Source of the DNA: a virus
Virus record (IMG/VR): IMGVR_UViG_3300009505_000624
Span: 1 to 25,631 of that record
Direction: 5' to 3' (one strand)
Length of the DNA stretch: 25,631 nt
A model generated the notes under the pieces. The model did not search any database. It saw nothing but the letters and a program-made list of their open reading frames with translations, and was not told the DNA's origin. Shown here piece after piece: positions 738 to 25,018 of the stretch; position 1 is the first letter of the stretch; each line of letters starts with the position of its first letter. The translations under genes and the position numbers were made by a program.

Positions 738-1403
738 TTAACCTGAGTATTTGCTGCCAGCTTCAGTAGCAACCCAATACTCAACAACAGAGCCTTTGAA
801 GTTTGAGATACCTTTAGATGATACATTCACCTTATAATCATCAGCCATGAACTTGAGATTTTCAGTCTTAAAGATGAACTCAAACTCAGCTTCAGTAACA
901 CCAACACTCAAACCAAACTCATTAGACGTTGGATTCTTAGTGTCAGTAGCAACCAAAGAGATAGAGCCATCAGCACCACGAACAACAACTTCTGGTAACG
1001 ATAACTGATTAGCGGCATTGACTACTTTCTTATAGTCAGCTTCACTCATATCAAAAGATACTTCTGGATCAGGTAACTCAAGATCCTTTTCTGGAGGTGA
1101 TACAACCATAGACGGATCAGTGTAAGTGTAACGTGAAGTGCTGTTACCACCGTTCTCTTTAATGGTTAATGACTTCTCACCAAAGTCCATTACCGCATCT
1201 TCGAACAAGCTAGTGAGACCGATAAACTGGTTCAGCTCATAGATAGCAAAGTCTTGCGGAAACGACTCACTCACAACAGCAGAAGCAAGGATGTTCTTCT
1301 GTGGCGATACTGTACGCAAAACATTACCTGTCTTGAACACAAGAGATGGATTAATGGTGGAAAAGTTTTTCAAAACGTCAAAAGTGTTATCGCTTAATTT
1401 CAT
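738..1403 (-). CDS. 45: Sliding clamp gp45
   Basis: A 221-aa protein, close to T4 gp45 (228 aa). The N-terminus MKLSDNTFDVLKNFSTINPS closely parallels T4 MKLSKDTTALLKNFATINSG, and IYELNQFIGLTSLF matches IYDLNGFLGILSLV. Later DPSMVVSPP and the C-terminal YWVATEA also parallel T4. gp45 is the trimeric DNA polymerase processivity clamp and, in T4-type phages, also the mobile activator of late transcription with gp55 and gp33. The start ATG at 1403 has a GAGGAAT ribosome-binding site and overlaps the stop of the upstream DUF3310 gene. It probably shares the glycosyltransferase promoter at 2829-2857 and is followed by a terminator. Confidence 0.95.
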   Translation of the reverse strand: MKLSDNTFDVLKNFSTINPSLVFKTGNVLRTVSPQKNILASAVVSESFPQDFAIYELNQFIGLTSLFEDAVMDFGEKSLTIKENGGNSTSRYTYTDPSMVVSPPEKDLELPDPEVSFDMSEADYKKVVNAANQLSLPEVVVRGADGSISLVATDTKNPTSNEFGLSVGVTEAEFEFIFKTENLKFMADDYKVNVSSKGISNFKGSVVEYWVATEAGSKYSG

Positions 1404-7439: not shown

Positions 7440-7988
7440 CTACAAAAGATTTTCAATAAAGCCAATAATTTTTTTCGTATCTTCAGGGACATTGTGATCA
7501 AAGGCATGGACGCATCCAGCTTCACCCATCAATATCTTTTCCCCAAACATATCTTCAATGTTAGCGACTTTGGTTACTCGCCCATTGATAAACGTTTCTG
7601 ATTGATCAGAACCTCTATCAGCATAACGCTGTTGGCGTACTGCGTCATCTGTCTTTAATACTACGATTGTTAAGTCATGTCCTGCTCGCTTAACAGCCTC
7701 AAAGAATTTGGAAGACGTGAGTCTGTCACCCTCAAAGACAACAACAGGCGATGGGTCATTTTCTAGATACTCAATAGCCATTGGCTGTACTGCCATCGAC
7801 AGCTTGTCAGTACCAGCAAACACTTCACCGTCTTCATACTTACCAAACAGACGGACATCGCCTGAAACATAACCATCAAGCAATTTTACAGGAGTATCTT
7901 TAGTCCACTCACGCTTAGACATCCACTCACGCATTAGTGTTGTCTTGCCAGTTCCAGGAATGCCAATAATACCAATCACTTTACTCAT
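7440..7988 (-). CDS. P-loop kinase, candidate hydroxymethyl-base kinase of the DNA modification cassette
   Basis: A 182-aa protein with N-terminal Walker A GIPGTGKT (residues 9-16) and a Walker-B-like VVVFEGDR (82-89). DAVRQQRYADRG follows at about 113-124 and could be an arginine-rich lid. The size and order of motifs match small kinases such as adenylate kinase or deoxynucleotide kinase rather than AAA+ proteins. Its start overlaps the stop of the TET/JBP oxygenase gene (ATGA), a sign of translational coupling. Phage base-hypermodification operons typically include a P-loop kinase that phosphorylates 5-hydroxymethyl pyrimidine in DNA; that role is inferred from context. A free-nucleotide kinase remains possible. 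Confidence 0.7.
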   Translation of the reverse strand: MSKVIGIIGIPGTGKTTLMREWMSKREWTKDTPVKLLDGYVSGDVRLFGKYEDGEVFAGTDKLSMAVQPMAIEYLENDPSPVVVFEGDRLTSSKFFEAVKRAGHDLTIVVLKTDDAVRQQRYADRGSDQSETFINGRVTKVANIEDMFGEKILMGEAGCVHAFDHNVPEDTKKIIGFIENLL

Positions 7989-9373
7989 GAGAAGAATCCT
8001 TCCAATGACGATTTAGCTTCAAGTGCTTCTGGATGATATTGTCGCAACATTCCCTCACCACCTTTGCTTTCTAGATAATCATACCATTCATTTTCATCCC
8101 ACATGCTTGGTGATACACCATTCCAAAAGTCTTTCCACAGTTTATGATTTTTATTAAGTCTACGATCATCAACATATTGTCTACGCAGTTTCTCATATTC
8201 CCATGAACCGACATCAAGCATCTTCTCGCGGAAATAACAAACAAGCGAGATACGCTCCATGTCTTCAATAGAAGTTCCAGCAGGTGGCTTGAGTTCAGTG
8301 TTGCCATGTATGCCACCATGATTGTTGATCAGTAATAGATCTCCTGGACGGATATTAATCCCCACACGATACTCAGGAAGAACAAGATATCCACCTTCCC
8401 AATTCTTTTGTTTGGCAACAACAGTTAGATTTGAGAAACCTTCATTCAAGTCACCAGCATCACGATGTGCCGCAGTACGAAAGTTCTTGTTGACAGTAAT
8501 CGTAGTGAACGGAGTGTCTTCACCAGCAACACGGAATCGTGGGTCTAGTTTGCTCGCAGCTTCGTTCTGAATGCCATAGCGAACAGGCAAGTGTTCTTTA
8601 AACTTATCAGCCAGTTGACGCATGAAAGGATAGCACTTCTCATAGACAGTATAATTGTTCTCTGTATACGCAGTCGCCCGACCATACGGAATACGAGGAT
8701 AACGATCAAAGAATCCAGCAATACCTGACAACACCATGTTAGCATATGTTGTCTCAGAGATATATTGCTTCTTGGTATCTGCGGCATCTTTCTGAGCAGC
8801 TTCGGCAGTCATGCCTTTCCATTCTTCAACCTTATCATTAAAGAATGTGTCATAAGGATAGCCGTTGTCGCTTATCTTAGAACGGATCCAGACGATACCG
8901 CGAGATTCACCCTCAACACCAGCAGCATGTTTTGCCTTTATAGCTTCAACAGGATCTGTATCATCTTCAAACAGCGAGACTTTGCGCTTGATATAATATT
9001 CCATTATCTCTAGCTGTTCTTCAGTAACCCAATCTCGACCGCCTTGCTTTGCTCCTTTTGGACCAGCAGCCATCCCACGGTTTTGTGTGGGTAATGCCGC
9101 ACCGAGTAATCCCTCATATGCGCCATGTTGCTGTTCTTCAGTGAATACACCTTTACGGAATTTGAAGATTATGTTATCTTCGCTATTCTCAGCACCAAAA
9201 CCAGCAGGTGCGTAGAAGTCGGTGTTCTCTTCACAGATAAAATCCCAGTCAGCATCTTCCATATACTTACCGAGCTTGTGTTCACAGTCATCTCTAAACT
9301 TAGCAGTAACAGTTCTGACACCAGTCCTATTATCTACACTAACATCATAATTTTCGTTTATTACACCAATCAT
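7985..9373 (-). CDS. TET/JBP-type 2-oxoglutarate/Fe(II) dioxygenase
   Basis: A 462-aa protein. The catalytic double-stranded beta-helix lies at about 285-385: TTITVNKNFRTAAHRDAGD holds the iron ligands H303 and D305, NLTVVA and GGYLVLPEYRVGINIRPGDLL are core strands, IHGN gives the second histidine (H356), and ERISLVCYFREKM carries the likely 2-oxoglutarate-binding arginine (R374). AHRDAGD with GGYLxxPxYxxGxNxRxGD is characteristic of phage members of the TET/JBP family, which oxidise the methyl group of thymine or 5-methylcytosine in DNA. The ~200-residue N-terminal region and ~80-residue C-terminal tail (rich in Trp, Tyr and Lys) are of unknown role. The gene overlaps both neighbours by 4 bases. 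Whether the substrate is T or 5mC cannot be read from the sequence; no cytosine methyltransferase is in the window. Confidence 0.85.
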   Translation of the reverse strand: MIGVINENYDVSVDNRTGVRTVTAKFRDDCEHKLGKYMEDADWDFICEENTDFYAPAGFGAENSEDNIIFKFRKGVFTEEQQHGAYEGLLGAALPTQNRGMAAGPKGAKQGGRDWVTEEQLEIMEYYIKRKVSLFEDDTDPVEAIKAKHAAGVEGESRGIVWIRSKISDNGYPYDTFFNDKVEEWKGMTAEAAQKDAADTKKQYISETTYANMVLSGIAGFFDRYPRIPYGRATAYTENNYTVYEKCYPFMRQLADKFKEHLPVRYGIQNEAASKLDPRFRVAGEDTPFTTITVNKNFRTAAHRDAGDLNEGFSNLTVVAKQKNWEGGYLVLPEYRVGINIRPGDLLLINNHGGIHGNTELKPPAGTSIEDMERISLVCYFREKMLDVGSWEYEKLRRQYVDDRRLNKNHKLWKDFWNGVSPSMWDENEWYDYLESKGGEGMLRQYHPEALEAKSSLEGFFS

Positions 9374-10380
9374 ATCATAAATCTCTCTAAGCCAACGTCA
9401 GCCATTTCATTTGTAAATGTGTTCATGTGGTCAATCTTTCCAGTATCGAGGAATAGTTCCATTTTACCCTTATTCACTGAATTTGTCAAGTATTCATTTC
9501 GTAGCGTTTCTTTCCTAGCATCCCACATAGGTGTCCAGTCAATACCATCCCAACCGTCACGCTCAACTTGTTGTATCTCCTCAGCCTGTCTATCTATATA
9601 ATATCCAAGATAGCGACCTCGACTCTTGCGAAACAACTTCTTAAAGGAACACAGCGCAGTCTCCATAGCAAAGAAGTCAGCCTTGTGTGCTGAGTTTGGA
9701 TGAGCAGCTTTAACCTCTTGTAAGATACTCTTACCCTCAGCTTCCATCCACTGTATCTCATCATCGCCCAGTTTCGTATTGACCCAATCATCTTTACCAA
9801 GAGCATAACAAAGACCATTACGATGCGAGCGCGATCCAGAGTAGTCATGTAACCATAAGCTAGGAACATCTACATTTAATCCAGCACATTGCTTTAGTGT
9901 TTGGATATAAAACCATGAAGTGTATCGCCCAAACTTGTGTAGAGAGTTTACTGCTTCCCACACCTTAGCAAAGTTTTCATATTTATCACCATCACACAAC
10001 TCATCAAACGCTTGCGCCTGAGTTCTCTCACCAACCCAATTCTTATAAGAAACAAACTGGTCAGCAAGGTGTCCTTTGTTCCACTTAGTGTCTGTTTGGT
10101 AACGCAACCTTGAATAGTTTTCGTTATTCCAATCTCGTAACCTCTCAACACCAACCAACTCCATGTCAGGGAACTCATTCCATATCAGGTATGATGATGG
10201 AAAGTTGTATGTTGTACCATATAACCAACACAACCAAAGACGCTGTTCTTGATTATACTCAAAGCGATCAAAGAAGTAATTTGTAAGGTATAGTGCAGAG
10301 TCGCAATCTTCTATCTCAAGGCTCCACTTAAACCAGTTAATGAATGCTGTTCTGCGGTGTTCACTTAAACGATAATCCAT
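9370..10380 (-). CDS. Probable amino-acid:DNA transferase / aGPT-pyrophosphorylase-like protein
   Basis: A 336-aa, largely helical protein rich in Trp and Tyr. Notable segments are LYGTTYNFPSSYLIWNEFP (53-71), KFGRYTSWFYIQTLK (149-163) and LHDYSGSRSHRNGLCYALG (177-195). No P-loop, zinc cluster or membrane segment is seen. The pattern resembles helical phage proteins predicted to attach amino acids or amines to hydroxymethyl-pyrimidines in DNA (amino-acid:DNA transferases and the related alpha-glutamyl/putrescinyl-thymine pyrophosphorylases). The family call comes from motif recall plus its position, overlapping the TET/JBP gene by 4 bases and the GNAT gene by 1 base. The function is therefore an inference, though the tight coupling to the oxygenase is directly visible. 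Confidence 0.55.
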   Translation of the reverse strand: MDYRLSEHRRTAFINWFKWSLEIEDCDSALYLTNYFFDRFEYNQEQRLWLCWLYGTTYNFPSSYLIWNEFPDMELVGVERLRDWNNENYSRLRYQTDTKWNKGHLADQFVSYKNWVGERTQAQAFDELCDGDKYENFAKVWEAVNSLHKFGRYTSWFYIQTLKQCAGLNVDVPSLWLHDYSGSRSHRNGLCYALGKDDWVNTKLGDDEIQWMEAEGKSILQEVKAAHPNSAHKADFFAMETALCSFKKLFRKSRGRYLGYYIDRQAEEIQQVERDGWDGIDWTPMWDARKETLRNEYLTNSVNKGKMELFLDTGKIDHMNTFTNEMADVGLERFMI

Positions 10381-11033
10381 TAGAAAAATTCCTCAAGTGT
10401 ATTAGGCTCATCACCAAGTATATAGTCGCGCATCCAATACTCACCAACACGGTCGATTGCCTCTTTCACAGTGGCAGTTTTCTTAACACCGAACCCATGT
10501 GACTCTAGCGATTCGCCTTGTAGCTGTTTAATAACTTTAGGATCGGTGGGGGTGACAAGATGGGGCATTTTCGTTACTGTATCTCTGAACATACACTGCT
10601 CTTTTATAGATGGGAATAGTGGTTGATCAGAACGCAATGAACCTGTAGGATCAACCGCCCAGAATATCAACCCATTTCTTTTATGCCACGTTATAGAAGA
10701 TGGAGTACATGATATTTTCAACCTTGTCATACCCTCACCAAAGGCATGACTCATCACCTTCTCCCAGATAGCTGTGGCATATCCCTTACCTTCATGCCCT
10801 TGTCGCGTGACGATCTCATATAGGTTGATGTAACGCGATCTCTGGCTGTATGTGGCAAATACAAAAGCAACCAACTCGCCATCTACTTCCCAAGCAAATG
10901 GTTGATTCTTTTGATAGTTCTTAAACCGAAACCAAAGGCTGTGCGATGAATTGAGAAACTTTGTATTCTTACCGTCTGGAGAATTTTCAATAGATTCTTC
11001 AATCATCTCTTGAGTACAGCGAACTAAGCGCAT
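10380..11033 (-). CDS. GNAT-family acetyltransferase with C-terminal extension
   Basis: A 217-aa protein. Residues about 30-125 form a GNAT core: FAWEVDGELVAFVFATY (strands 2-3), LYEIVTRQGHEGKGYATAIW with the acetyl-CoA loop RQGHEGKGYA (77-86), then RLKISCTPSSITWHKRNGLIFW, which fits strand 5 and the last helix. About 70 extra residues follow, ending in acidic EPNTLEEFF. The start overlaps the amidotransferase stop and the stop overlaps the next start (TAATG). GNAT enzymes transfer an acyl group from acyl-CoA to an amine. In this setting the natural target would be an amine put on a modified base, but a protein or metabolite target is not excluded. Confidence 0.75.
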   Translation of the reverse strand: MRLVRCTQEMIEESIENSPDGKNTKFLNSSHSLWFRFKNYQKNQPFAWEVDGELVAFVFATYSQRSRYINLYEIVTRQGHEGKGYATAIWEKVMSHAFGEGMTRLKISCTPSSITWHKRNGLIFWAVDPTGSLRSDQPLFPSIKEQCMFRDTVTKMPHLVTPTDPKVIKQLQGESLESHGFGVKKTATVKEAIDRVGEYWMRDYILGDEPNTLEEFF

Positions 11034-11719
11034 TGTAGATCCCTCACTAAAGCACCGCCCCGAAGCTGATGTGAGAATTTTATATTGTCGCCATTATAGC
11101 TGTGTGTAACATACATCTGTGTTCTGTGCGGCTTTTCAATACCGCTTCGTTGTAAGATATTCTTTGTTGAAGCAAACACCACACCGTCTTCACGTGGGCT
11201 AAACCATAGCGGTCTTGCTTCATTTCTAAAGGCAGTGAGCCTCTTATCTTTACTGATACTACAGACCGCCATACTAGCTGGACTAAAATCATCTAATGGA
11301 TTCATTCCAGCTTCAATCGACTTCAGTATAAGCTCGCTATCGTTTGCTGTCTCGGTTTGATATTTCCACTGACTCTGATCTTCTTGAGAGATAACACCAT
11401 TGTGGACTATGCTTTGTTCACCGTTTGAAAATGGTTGATTGTAACGCAGGTCAGATGTTGAGTAGCGAATATGCCCAATGAGATAGATACCGCCATCTTC
11501 GTTGACCATGCTGCTTATAGGATGCTTCTTTAGAAACTGGTCGCAAGGAATCCCTTCCTTAATGGTGTGAAGCTGAGAGTCTTTCACATAAGTGACACCA
11601 GTAGCATGCTTGCCTCTTATCATCGATTCACGAAATATACGCTCGACCAACTGTATATTCTCGATACCTCCACGACTTACAGAAGATCTCTTCAGCCATA
11701 CACCTATCACACCACACAT
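11024..11719 (-). CDS. Stand-alone class II glutamine amidotransferase
   Basis: A 231-aa Ntn-hydrolase. It begins MCGVIG, giving the catalytic Cys2 once the initiator Met is removed. RGKHATGVTYV and GIYLIGHIRYSTSDLRYNQP match the glutamine-binding and RxST motifs of GlmS/PurF-type domains. SIVHNGVISQ and NDSELILKSIEAG complete the usual signature. The protein has only the glutaminase half, without the synthase domain of GlmS, PurF or AsnB. It must pass ammonia to a partner or act as a simple glutaminase. It is the first gene of the cassette, 30 bases behind the consensus promoter at 11750-11778, so it probably supplies nitrogen for the modified base. The ribosome-binding site (AGGG) is weak. 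Confidence 0.85.
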   Translation of the reverse strand: MCGVIGVWLKRSSVSRGGIENIQLVERIFRESMIRGKHATGVTYVKDSQLHTIKEGIPCDQFLKKHPISSMVNEDGGIYLIGHIRYSTSDLRYNQPFSNGEQSIVHNGVISQEDQSQWKYQTETANDSELILKSIEAGMNPLDDFSPASMAVCSISKDKRLTAFRNEARPLWFSPREDGVVFASTKNILQRSGIEKPHRTQMYVTHSYNGDNIKFSHQLRGGALVRDLQCA

Positions 11720-11749: not shown

Positions 11750-11778
11750 ATTATACACTACATCGTACGAGAAGTCAA
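11750..11778 (-). promoter_or_regulatory. Sigma70-like promoter for the DNA-modification cassette
   Basis: On the minus strand TTGACT (11778-11773), 17-base spacer, perfect TATAAT (11755-11750). The first start codon follows at 11719. It would transcribe the five overlapping genes down to 7440. Confidence 0.8.
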
Positions 11779-18093: not shown

Positions 18094-18122
18094 ATTATAT
18101 CGTATTACTGGATCGTAGTCAA
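18094..18122 (-). promoter_or_regulatory. Sigma70-like promoter for uvsY-uvsW
   Basis: On the minus strand TTGACT (18122-18117), 17-base spacer, TATAAT (18099-18094), about 34 bases before the uvsY TTG start. It marks the boundary between the late structural genes and the earlier recombination genes. Confidence 0.8.
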
Positions 18123-18626
18123 CTCATATTTCCTGTAGTTAAAGCTAACTTGGGCTGATAGATAATCAACGTCAGAGTTCTCTATGCTAAACTCTAAAGA
18201 TGAAAGGTTGGTTGGGTACATGTCAATAAATTTAACCTCAATGTTCGGTGTCATAGCAGCAGTCGTGATGATCATAGAACCATCAGAGTATATATTACCA
18301 GTGTTGTCTTTGGTTCTTCCGAGAGCCTTTGCTTGATCGAAACTATCTGGATAACCGAGTCCCATCAACCAATTATAAATTTCAGAAAAGTTTTTCATAT
18401 CTTCATCAACACGGAATGTTAACTGGAGCTGTCCAAAGTCCAACTTGTCACCTGGAATTGGGAGCTTGACAAATGGGTTGTTCATCTCAGTCGGTGCGCT
18501 TAAAGAGATATCAGGAATAGAAGCTGCGGTGCAAAAGTAGTTTACATGCGGCAATCTTTGTACGCTAAACCTGAAGCCTATTGGCGACAAGAAACTCTTG
18601 TTTGTTGGTTCTGATGGTGCAGTCAT
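18105..18626 (-). CDS. 3: Tail completion / tube-terminator protein gp3
   Basis: A 173-aa protein, close to T4 gp3 (176 aa). The central block ASIPDISLSAP, then LPIPGDKLDFGQLQLTFRVD and EDMKNFSEIYNWLM, parallels a T4 tail-terminator pattern (IPGI...LPGSTFEFDPLIVRFLVDEE...AYKWML). The C-terminal VSFNYRKYEL is the typical last strand of tail-tube-fold proteins. gp3 caps the tail tube and stabilises the sheath. Placement between gene 23 and uvsY agrees with gene order in T4-like phages of cyanobacteria. A paralogous tube-fold protein such as gp54 is the main alternative. It has its own late promoter (18661-18668) and an AAGGTAG ribosome-binding site. Confidence 0.75.
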   Translation of the reverse strand: MTAPSEPTNKSFLSPIGFRFSVQRLPHVNYFCTAASIPDISLSAPTEMNNPFVKLPIPGDKLDFGQLQLTFRVDEDMKNFSEIYNWLMGLGYPDSFDQAKALGRTKDNTGNIYSDGSMIITTAAMTPNIEVKFIDMYPTNLSSLEFSIENSDVDYLSAQVSFNYRKYELTTIQ

Positions 18627-24472: not shown

Positions 24473-25018
24473 CTAGATGCCGCCAGCATTGCCAGTAGAG
24501 CCACCTGAAACTTCCCAGTAATCATACTGGAATGTTACGCTGTACTCTTGGATAGCTTCACTGTCCCAAGCCAAGTCGATAGTGCCGACTTCAGATGGGT
24601 ACAAACCAACAAAGTTGTAAACACGGAGAATAGAACCGTCTTTACCAAACTGTGTGATTTGAGCATTAGCTTTATATAGGCTTGGAGCAGAACCAGACTG
24701 ATTAACATTGCCTTGGGCAGTATTGATCGAGTTTGACCACGCTTCAAGAGAGTTACGGATTGCAAAATCTTCATCATTGATGATGGTCGGTGCCCATTCA
24801 GCATAAGTGCGATTACCAGCCAACTTGATTTGACGACCGAAGTATGGAACTTCAACCGTACCAAGTGTAGAGGCAGGGATCTGCGCAGCTTTCACCATGA
24901 ATGGTACTTGTGCATCAGCAACACCATTGATTGGATTTGTTATCTGGACTTGGAAGAGTGATGCTCGTGCACCACCCCCTGTTAAAGCTCCAGCAAAATC
25001 ATTTACATTGAACGCCAT
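24473..25018 (-). CDS. 19: Tail tube protein gp19
   Basis: A 181-aa protein, near T4 gp19 (163 aa). It begins MAFNVNDFAGALTGGGARAS, then LFQVQITNP, the N-terminal pattern of contractile-tail tube proteins. PASTLGTVEVPYFGRQIKLAG forms the inner hairpin segment and FVGLYPSEVGTIDLAWDSEA, EYSVTFQYDYWEV the C-terminal strands, all typical of T4-type gp19. It forms the hexameric tube inside the sheath. It lies between 18 and 20 as in T4, has a GGGAGA ribosome-binding site, and a CATAAATA late-type box overlaps the end of gene 18. Confidence 0.95.
   Translation of the reverse strand: MAFNVNDFAGALTGGGARASLFQVQITNPINGVADAQVPFMVKAAQIPASTLGTVEVPYFGRQIKLAGNRTYAEWAPTIINDEDFAIRNSLEAWSNSINTAQGNVNQSGSAPSLYKANAQITQFGKDGSILRVYNFVGLYPSEVGTIDLAWDSEAIQEYSVTFQYDYWEVSGGSTGNAGGI

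Follow-up and report, generated by a model that had tools for sequence, protein, structure and literature searches.

The question raised by this locus is which modified base five overlapping phage genes produce, and when their enzymes reach the DNA. The genes lie on a genome fragment, 25.6 kb long, from a T4-like phage (IMGVR_UViG_3300009505_000624, positions 1 to 25,631), hereafter called the window, to which all coordinates refer. They encode a glutamine amidotransferase (GAT), a GNAT acyltransferase, a protein of the amino acid:DNA transferase family (ADDT), a TET/JBP-type dioxygenase and a P-loop kinase (KIN). Judged from gene content and predicted folds, this is a real and widespread TET-initiated cassette for the hypermodification of thymine. 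We favor, with a probability of roughly 0.68, the explanation that it acts after or during replication and converts thymine (T) into acetyl-aminomethyl-deoxyuridine (acetyl-aminomethyl-dU), with docking on the sliding clamp. The clamp-binding-like tails shared by several of the enzymes were overlooked in an earlier note on this DNA; they are the new and most surprising part of the system.

All five open reading frames (ORFs) were recovered on the minus strand at the coordinates given in that note, which had described overlaps of 1-10 bases; the successive overlaps amount to 10, 1, 4 and 4 bases. Its assignment of the five products also stood, each ORF lying above the curated Pfam cut-off of a named family. 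In the dioxygenase, the residues H303, D305, H356 and R374, which the note had named and which form the HxD...H...R motif for Fe(II) and 2-oxoglutarate, were invariant in 18 homologues. Proteins of this kind are labelled 'SNF2 DNA repair protein' in the records of DLP6, Cr30, HTVC112P and S-CBWM1. The GAT comprises 231 aa; its N-terminal nucleophile C2 and the glutamine-site residues R85, N107, G108 and D127 were invariant in 36 homologues. Among PDB entries its profile matched PurF most closely (3e-9), followed by GlmS (8e-6) and AsnB (2e-4). As it stands alone with no synthase or ligase domain of its own, it represents the glutaminase half only. Residues G9, P11, G14, K15 and T17 of the kinase were invariant among its homologues. 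This protein belongs to Ploopntkinase3 and not to the HMUD kinases, of which HMUD2 was found in sister clusters, and is probably a 5-hydroxymethyl-dU (5-hmdU) DNA kinase. Its relatives in PHROG 800 and in mycobacteriophage records, 288 of which match, are labelled terminase small subunit or adenylate kinase; possibly this is a misannotation, or the kinase domain is common to gene 1 of those mycobacteriophages.

Three scans of viral contigs together with three named phages yielded 174 loci, which with the window formed 65 clusters when loci having 150 identical bases in common were joined. Co-occurrence was determined for 23 independent ADDT clusters having 4 kb on both sides. ADDT was accompanied by GAT in 22 of them, by the kinase in 20, by TET in 18, by GNAT in 17 and by an amidoligase-like gene in 10. 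The survey of gene neighborhoods suggested in the earlier note thus revealed a conserved gene set, and since the gene order is kept in many contigs, the cassette is not a product of chance. Besides the order seen in the window, GAT-GNAT-ADDT-TET-KIN, a second design was found, GAT-amidoligase-GNATB-(439 aa protein)-ADDT-TET-KIN. Between GNATB and ADDT lies a conserved hypothetical protein of approximately 435 aa (e.g., L032:7723-9042 and L028:13564-14865). The smallest sets, TET-GAT-ADDT-KIN (L087 and L143/L144), keep GAT beside ADDT without GNAT or ligase, the two genes overlapping by 1-4 bases; on this comparison GAT is tied to ADDT and not to GNAT or to a ligase. A fusion of GAT and ADDT did not occur among the loci. 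At L139 the Ploopntkinase3 kinase is absent and an HMUD2 5-hmdU DNA kinase (2.8e-9) lies between ADDT and the amidoligase (9e-10), while L137:9625-11727 encodes one protein of 700 aa that unites GNAT, amidoligase and HMUD2 5-hmdU DNA kinase and ends with VMDEWL. Some cassettes contained a duplicated TET, a duplicated amidoligase or a split ADDT ORF (L131, L204, L093, L173, L034).

TET is probably a thymine hydroxylase acting in DNA and would convert T to 5-hmdU, which the kinase would turn into 5-phosphomethyl-dU (5-PmdU). ADDT would then exchange the phosphate for a nitrogen nucleophile, most likely ammonia freed from glutamine by GAT, so that 5-aminomethyl-dU arises, and GNAT would acetylate the amine to give acetyl-aminomethyl-dU. 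Our confidence is strong for the order TET, kinase, ADDT, GNAT and moderate for ammonia as the donor and acetyl as the final group. Sequence searches against solved structures with ADDT, GNAT and TET gave nothing useful. The AlphaFold model of ADDT (pLDDT 93.1), however, had as its best PDB match the 5-PmdU glycinyltransferase of phage PaMx (8z2m/8z2n; probability 1.00, TM 0.52-0.67), the next match having a probability of 0.05. The search thus placed the protein beside a DNA-modification enzyme, and the predicted succession, in which oxidation and phosphorylation precede exchange for an amine or amino acid, was supported. The GNAT model (pLDDT 93.6) gave SpeG/Ard1/PaiA amine acetyltransferases as best fold matches, and because of this likeness to enzymes acetylating small amines, an acetylated amine is favored. 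In PurF, ammonia is delivered to a carbon that phosphate has activated. As GAT is closest to PurF, whose chemistry the 5-PmdU step needs, supply of ammonia is probably the likelier role of GAT. Amidation, which the earlier note had considered, was rejected for GAT alone: this class II amidotransferase lacks a ligase domain of the ATP-dependent kind, and long relatives of the GAT-GNAT-ADDT-TET-KIN design contained no amidoligase of the sister-cluster type. Neither an FAD amino-acid oxidase nor a clear radical SAM enzyme was found in the long relatives, one sub-threshold radical SAM match (E 0.009) belonging to G007, a genome of other design. A route to 5-aminomethyl-dU by glycine attachment and a subsequent lyase thus has no candidate lyase in this design.

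TET, ADDT and GNAT end with similar short peptides (Table 1). The motif was defined as [ST]L[DE]x[FM][FLMI] at the C-terminus, a looser form being used for ADDT. Elsewhere among nonredundant homologues it ended eight of ten glycosyltransferases and one of 41 kinases, and none of 52 GAT and 17 amidoligase proteins. Similar C-termini are found on the DNA polymerases of these phages (SSLESFFG, KASLEDFFG) and on T4 gp43 (ASLDFLFG); since the fragment does not reach the polymerase gene of the window's phage, this comparison was made by means of the close relatives G001 and G003. Across ten genomes, 34 polymerases and modification enzymes included 22 that ended with the motif, versus 10 of 1602 other ORFs, three of these ten being gp55 and one an adenine-methyltransferase-like protein. 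The last 11 residues of the ADDT model (pLDDT <50) and the last residues of the GNAT model (pLDDT ~57) were of low confidence, each with a short terminal helix. The tails are extreme C-terminal peptides of hydrophobic and acidic character that resemble the end of the cognate polymerase and follow a flexible linker. GAT and its homologues have a nearly invariant C-terminal DLQ tail of their own, perhaps a docking peptide for ADDT. Beside the DNA polymerase, L211-L219 (C48C1 33480-34364) encode a Dam-type adenine-methyltransferase-like protein ending with STLDAFFG, which may likewise modify DNA while bound to the clamp. The tail is also present on small endonuclease VII-like and HNH proteins adjoining the cassette (L045:9678-10007, L037:11952-12617, L027:8005-8676).

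In T4, gp43, gp55 and gp33 bind the sliding clamp gp45 through hydrophobic and acidic C-termini, which are interchangeable, those of gp55 and gp33 being carried on linkers (PMC2988020, PMC7892883). We propose with good confidence that TET, ADDT and GNAT dock through their tails on the gp45-type clamp and would act behind the replication fork. Modification probably rides on the clamp because the tails match that of the polymerase, co-vary with it and are absent from TET proteins of phages in which no clamp was detected. Where the polymerase tail is different, those of the modifying enzymes are different too: in Cr30 the polymerase ends with DLSSLFD and the glycosyltransferase with SDLSKLF, in G013 MDEWLI of the polymerase is accompanied by GMDEWL (kinase) and SIEEWV (ADDT), and in the ViI-like phage Ag3, for which the pattern was taken from the phage's own proteins, VNLLAMM is accompanied by VNLMALL (ADDT) and RSLLDLM (HMUD2 kinase). 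Permutation with the polymerase tails shuffled among genomes gave p = 0.0006 for this co-variation. The TET proteins of HTVC112P, P12024L and S-CBWM1, which gave no phrog_223 match, have no tail, whereas the phrog_223 clamp was present in the tail-bearing C48C1, DLP6, Cr30, Ag3, G012, G013 and G017, a small sample.

As to the base at which the pathway starts, the earlier note had left a choice between T and 5-methylcytosine. A search of 24 relatives, among them the complete phages C48C1, DLP6 and Cr30, found no C5-methyltransferase in 23. The sole relative with such a C5-cytosine-methyltransferase, G018/L151, carries GAT-ADDT-amidoligase-GNATB-KIN, and no TET was found in its cluster. Enzymes of the thymidylate synthase (TS) family, a source of hydroxymethyl-dUMP or -dCMP, occurred only in Cr30 among the records searched, and ThyX in 9 of 15 records. 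Thymine as substrate is thus indicated by TET-bearing relatives without C5-methyltransferase, the long ones mostly with ThyX, by sister clusters with 5-hmdU kinases and by the ADDT fold matching a 5-PmdU glycinyltransferase; these gene contents and folds argue strongly for thymine and not for 5-methylcytosine. Oxidation of 5-methylcytosine by TET to 5-hydroxymethylcytosine and decoration of the latter by the cassette would agree with the classical substrate of the TET family and with the TET-associated glycosyltransferase (PF20691) as partner in sister loci, but on the gene content just described, and with an ADDT fold and HMUD2 kinases indicating 5-hmdU, this route was rejected as very improbable. 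That the cassette acts on RNA or tRNA is hardly credible, even though 2-oxoglutarate dioxygenase, GNAT and amidotransferase folds are known from RNA modification too: ADDT and HMUD2 are DNA-modification families, the tails are like those of a DNA polymerase, and the slot is exchanged for glycosyltransferase modules typical of phage DNA. A serious rival concerns the donor. In the same thymine pathway ADDT might attach a free amino acid whose nitrogen is then acylated by GNAT, GAT serving some other small-molecule step. The best fold match, a glycine-using enzyme, the Pfam name of the family and the amidoligase, which needs a carboxylate and joins GAT in sister clusters, all fit this version. 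GAT, on the other hand, is nearly universal beside this ADDT clade even where neither GNAT nor amidoligase was found, it was not found near the more distant ADDT proteins of Cr30 and Ag3, and genomes of the present architecture yielded no ligase of the sister-cluster type. We rate the amino acid somewhat below an even chance.

The tails might also bind another partner in the replisome or in packaging, or reflect recent gene mosaicism, as the patterns were chosen after inspection and a few unrelated ORFs carry them. We regard this as unlikely, for this tail is shared by the DNA polymerase and, in a loose form, by some homologues of gp55, both being clamp clients in T4; enzymes unrelated in fold follow the polymerase in Cr30, G013 and Ag3, and TET proteins of phages without a gp45 match carry no tail. 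Several points nevertheless weigh against the explanation that thymine is acetyl-aminomethylated by clamp-docked enzymes. Apart from the likeness of ADDT to a glycine-using enzyme, the window is a fragment, and the genome-wide absences were drawn from relatives that are mostly incomplete. The kinase, which is expected to act on DNA, mostly lacks a tail, and in Cr30 both ADDT and the kinase lack one despite the presence of a clamp. Testing of the tails began only once they had been spotted, and it relied on patterns made by hand and on genomes that are related. Finally, according to a 2026 study of T4, the share of modification due to the alpha-glucosyltransferase is not accounted for by the binding of this enzyme to the clamp (PMC13216743). 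To a broader version, in which hypermodification of phage DNA is coupled to the replisome in general, we give about even odds: dioxygenase, transferase, acetyltransferase, kinase and glycosyltransferase may each have evolved the clamp peptide of the cognate polymerase, forming an assembly line on nascent DNA which in this lineage would draw its ammonia from glutamine and yield 5-aminomethyl-dU as well as the acetylated base.

The cassette is flanked by gp46/peptide deformylase and Hsp20, and the identical slot was found in L005 and L007-L010. In other T4-like relatives TET shares the slot with a TET-associated glycosyltransferase and in some of them also with an epimerase; at further loci, genes for an epimerase and UDP-galactopyranose mutase come after TET. 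As the contents of the slot differ among relatives while TET stays, TET appears to perform the first step in all of them, the tailoring module being exchangeable. Loci with TET and PF20691 in this slot, often together with an epimerase, are L012:11323-12126, L017:11350-12908 and L045:11332-12138, and their glycosyltransferases carry a clamp-like tail. If their substrate is thymine, the product would be a base-J-like glycosylated hydroxymethyluracil. The single consensus promoter reported earlier exists as a pattern; the number of such matches in the region was not above chance, but the site is retained in L005 (TTGACA-17-TATAAT) and L007/L008 (TTGATT-17-TATAAT), three relatives that differ in the spacer sequence. 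The window also contains two tail-tube (phrog_45) paralogues at 18105-18626 and 24473-25018.

Table 1. Positions of the cassette genes, their C-terminal tails and associated features in the window
Feature	Position	Strand	Support
T4 gp45-type sliding clamp, proposed docking partner	738..1403	-	phrog_223 DNA polymerase processivity factor 1.9e-74
P-loop kinase (KIN), probable 5-hmdU DNA kinase	7440..7988	-	Ploopntkinase3 PF18751 1e-18
TET/JBP-type Fe(II)/2-oxoglutarate dioxygenase, probable thymine hydroxylase	7985..9373	-	Tet_JBP PF12851 2.1e-24; phrog_24024 1.5e-155
TET C-terminal tail SLEGFFS (clamp-binding-like)	7988..8008	-	motif in 42/54 nonredundant TET C-termini
ADDT, probable 5-PmdU amino/amine transferase	9370..10380	-	PF18724 2.3e-22
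ADDT C-terminal tail GLERFMI	9373..9393	-	looser motif in 28/48 nonredundant homologues
GNAT acyltransferase, flexible C-terminal tail	10380..11033	-	Acetyltransf_1 PF00583 2.2e-10
GNAT C-terminal tail TLEEFF	10383..10400	-	motif in 20/31 nonredundant homologues
GAT (class II, PurF/GlmS type, stand-alone, without synthase domain)	11024..11719	-	Pfam GATase_6 1.6e-8
Promoter-like site TTGACT-17-TATAAT upstream of GAT/cassette	11750..11778	-	sequence pattern; kept in relatives

If our explanation is true, a widespread pathway would turn ordinary thymine into an amino-modified base with no need for hydroxymethyl-dUTP, and enzymes travelling with the clamp would explain how phage DNA is modified before host nucleases act. 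The timing of phage DNA modification, an old question, becomes directly testable. The tails are cheap to test, and their pattern is a simple sequence criterion by which phage genomes can be searched for more DNA-modifying enzymes bound to the clamp.

Phage TET/JBP hypermodification systems with tailoring neighbors were reportedly predicted by Iyer and colleagues in 2013. The present cassette resembles these systems in just this combination; what is described here is the conserved GAT-GNAT-ADDT-TET-KIN set, its interchange with modules containing an amidoligase or a glycosyltransferase, and the tails common to several of the enzymes. Thymidine hypermodification in ViI, M6 and PhiW-14 proceeds through 5-hmdU, the kinase 5-HMUDK and a transferase (PMC6449724). 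As in these phages and with the 5-PmdU glycinyltransferase of PaMx (PDB 8z2m), 5-hmdU would be phosphorylated in DNA and then serve a transferase and tailoring enzymes, and the ADDT family is common to the window and the ViI-like phage Ag3. Unlike there, the hydroxymethyl group probably arises by TET oxidation of T and not through a dUMP hydroxymethylase, the kinase is of the Ploopntkinase3 family, a PurF-like amidotransferase is present, and neither an FAD oxidase nor a clear radical SAM enzyme was found. The canonical M6/ViI form makes 5-hmdU at the nucleotide level with a TS-family dUMP hydroxymethylase. Since this family is absent from all records searched but Cr30, the cassette, though predicted to work like the M6/ViI pathway, is not classed as that form. 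Tonitrus possesses a five-gene thymidine hypermodification set and shares with the window a TET-like J-binding protein and a 5-hmU DNA kinase; it differs in its ParB-like and aGPT-Pplase2 genes, and no GAT or GNAT was reported there (PMC11955845). In the literature searched, which left out the field's central papers, no report of clamp tails on TET, ADDT or GNAT was found. A DNA-modifying enzyme with a link to the clamp, which here is predicted from the tails, is the T4 alpha-glucosyltransferase, which binds gp45 (PMC13216743, PMC6024577); it glucosylates 5-hydroxymethylcytosine, whereas in the present case the tail is common to dioxygenase, transferase and acetyltransferase. Glutamine-derived ammonia, finally, has already been proposed for the carboxymethylcytosine system CmoX/CmoY, where some CmoY homologues contain a glutamine-hydrolysing domain (PMC12783734). 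The two systems would share this source of nitrogen, but CmoX/CmoY uses cytosine as its handle and an asparagine-synthetase-like ligase that is fused, while the window has a stand-alone GAT beside ADDT and, most probably, thymine as its base.

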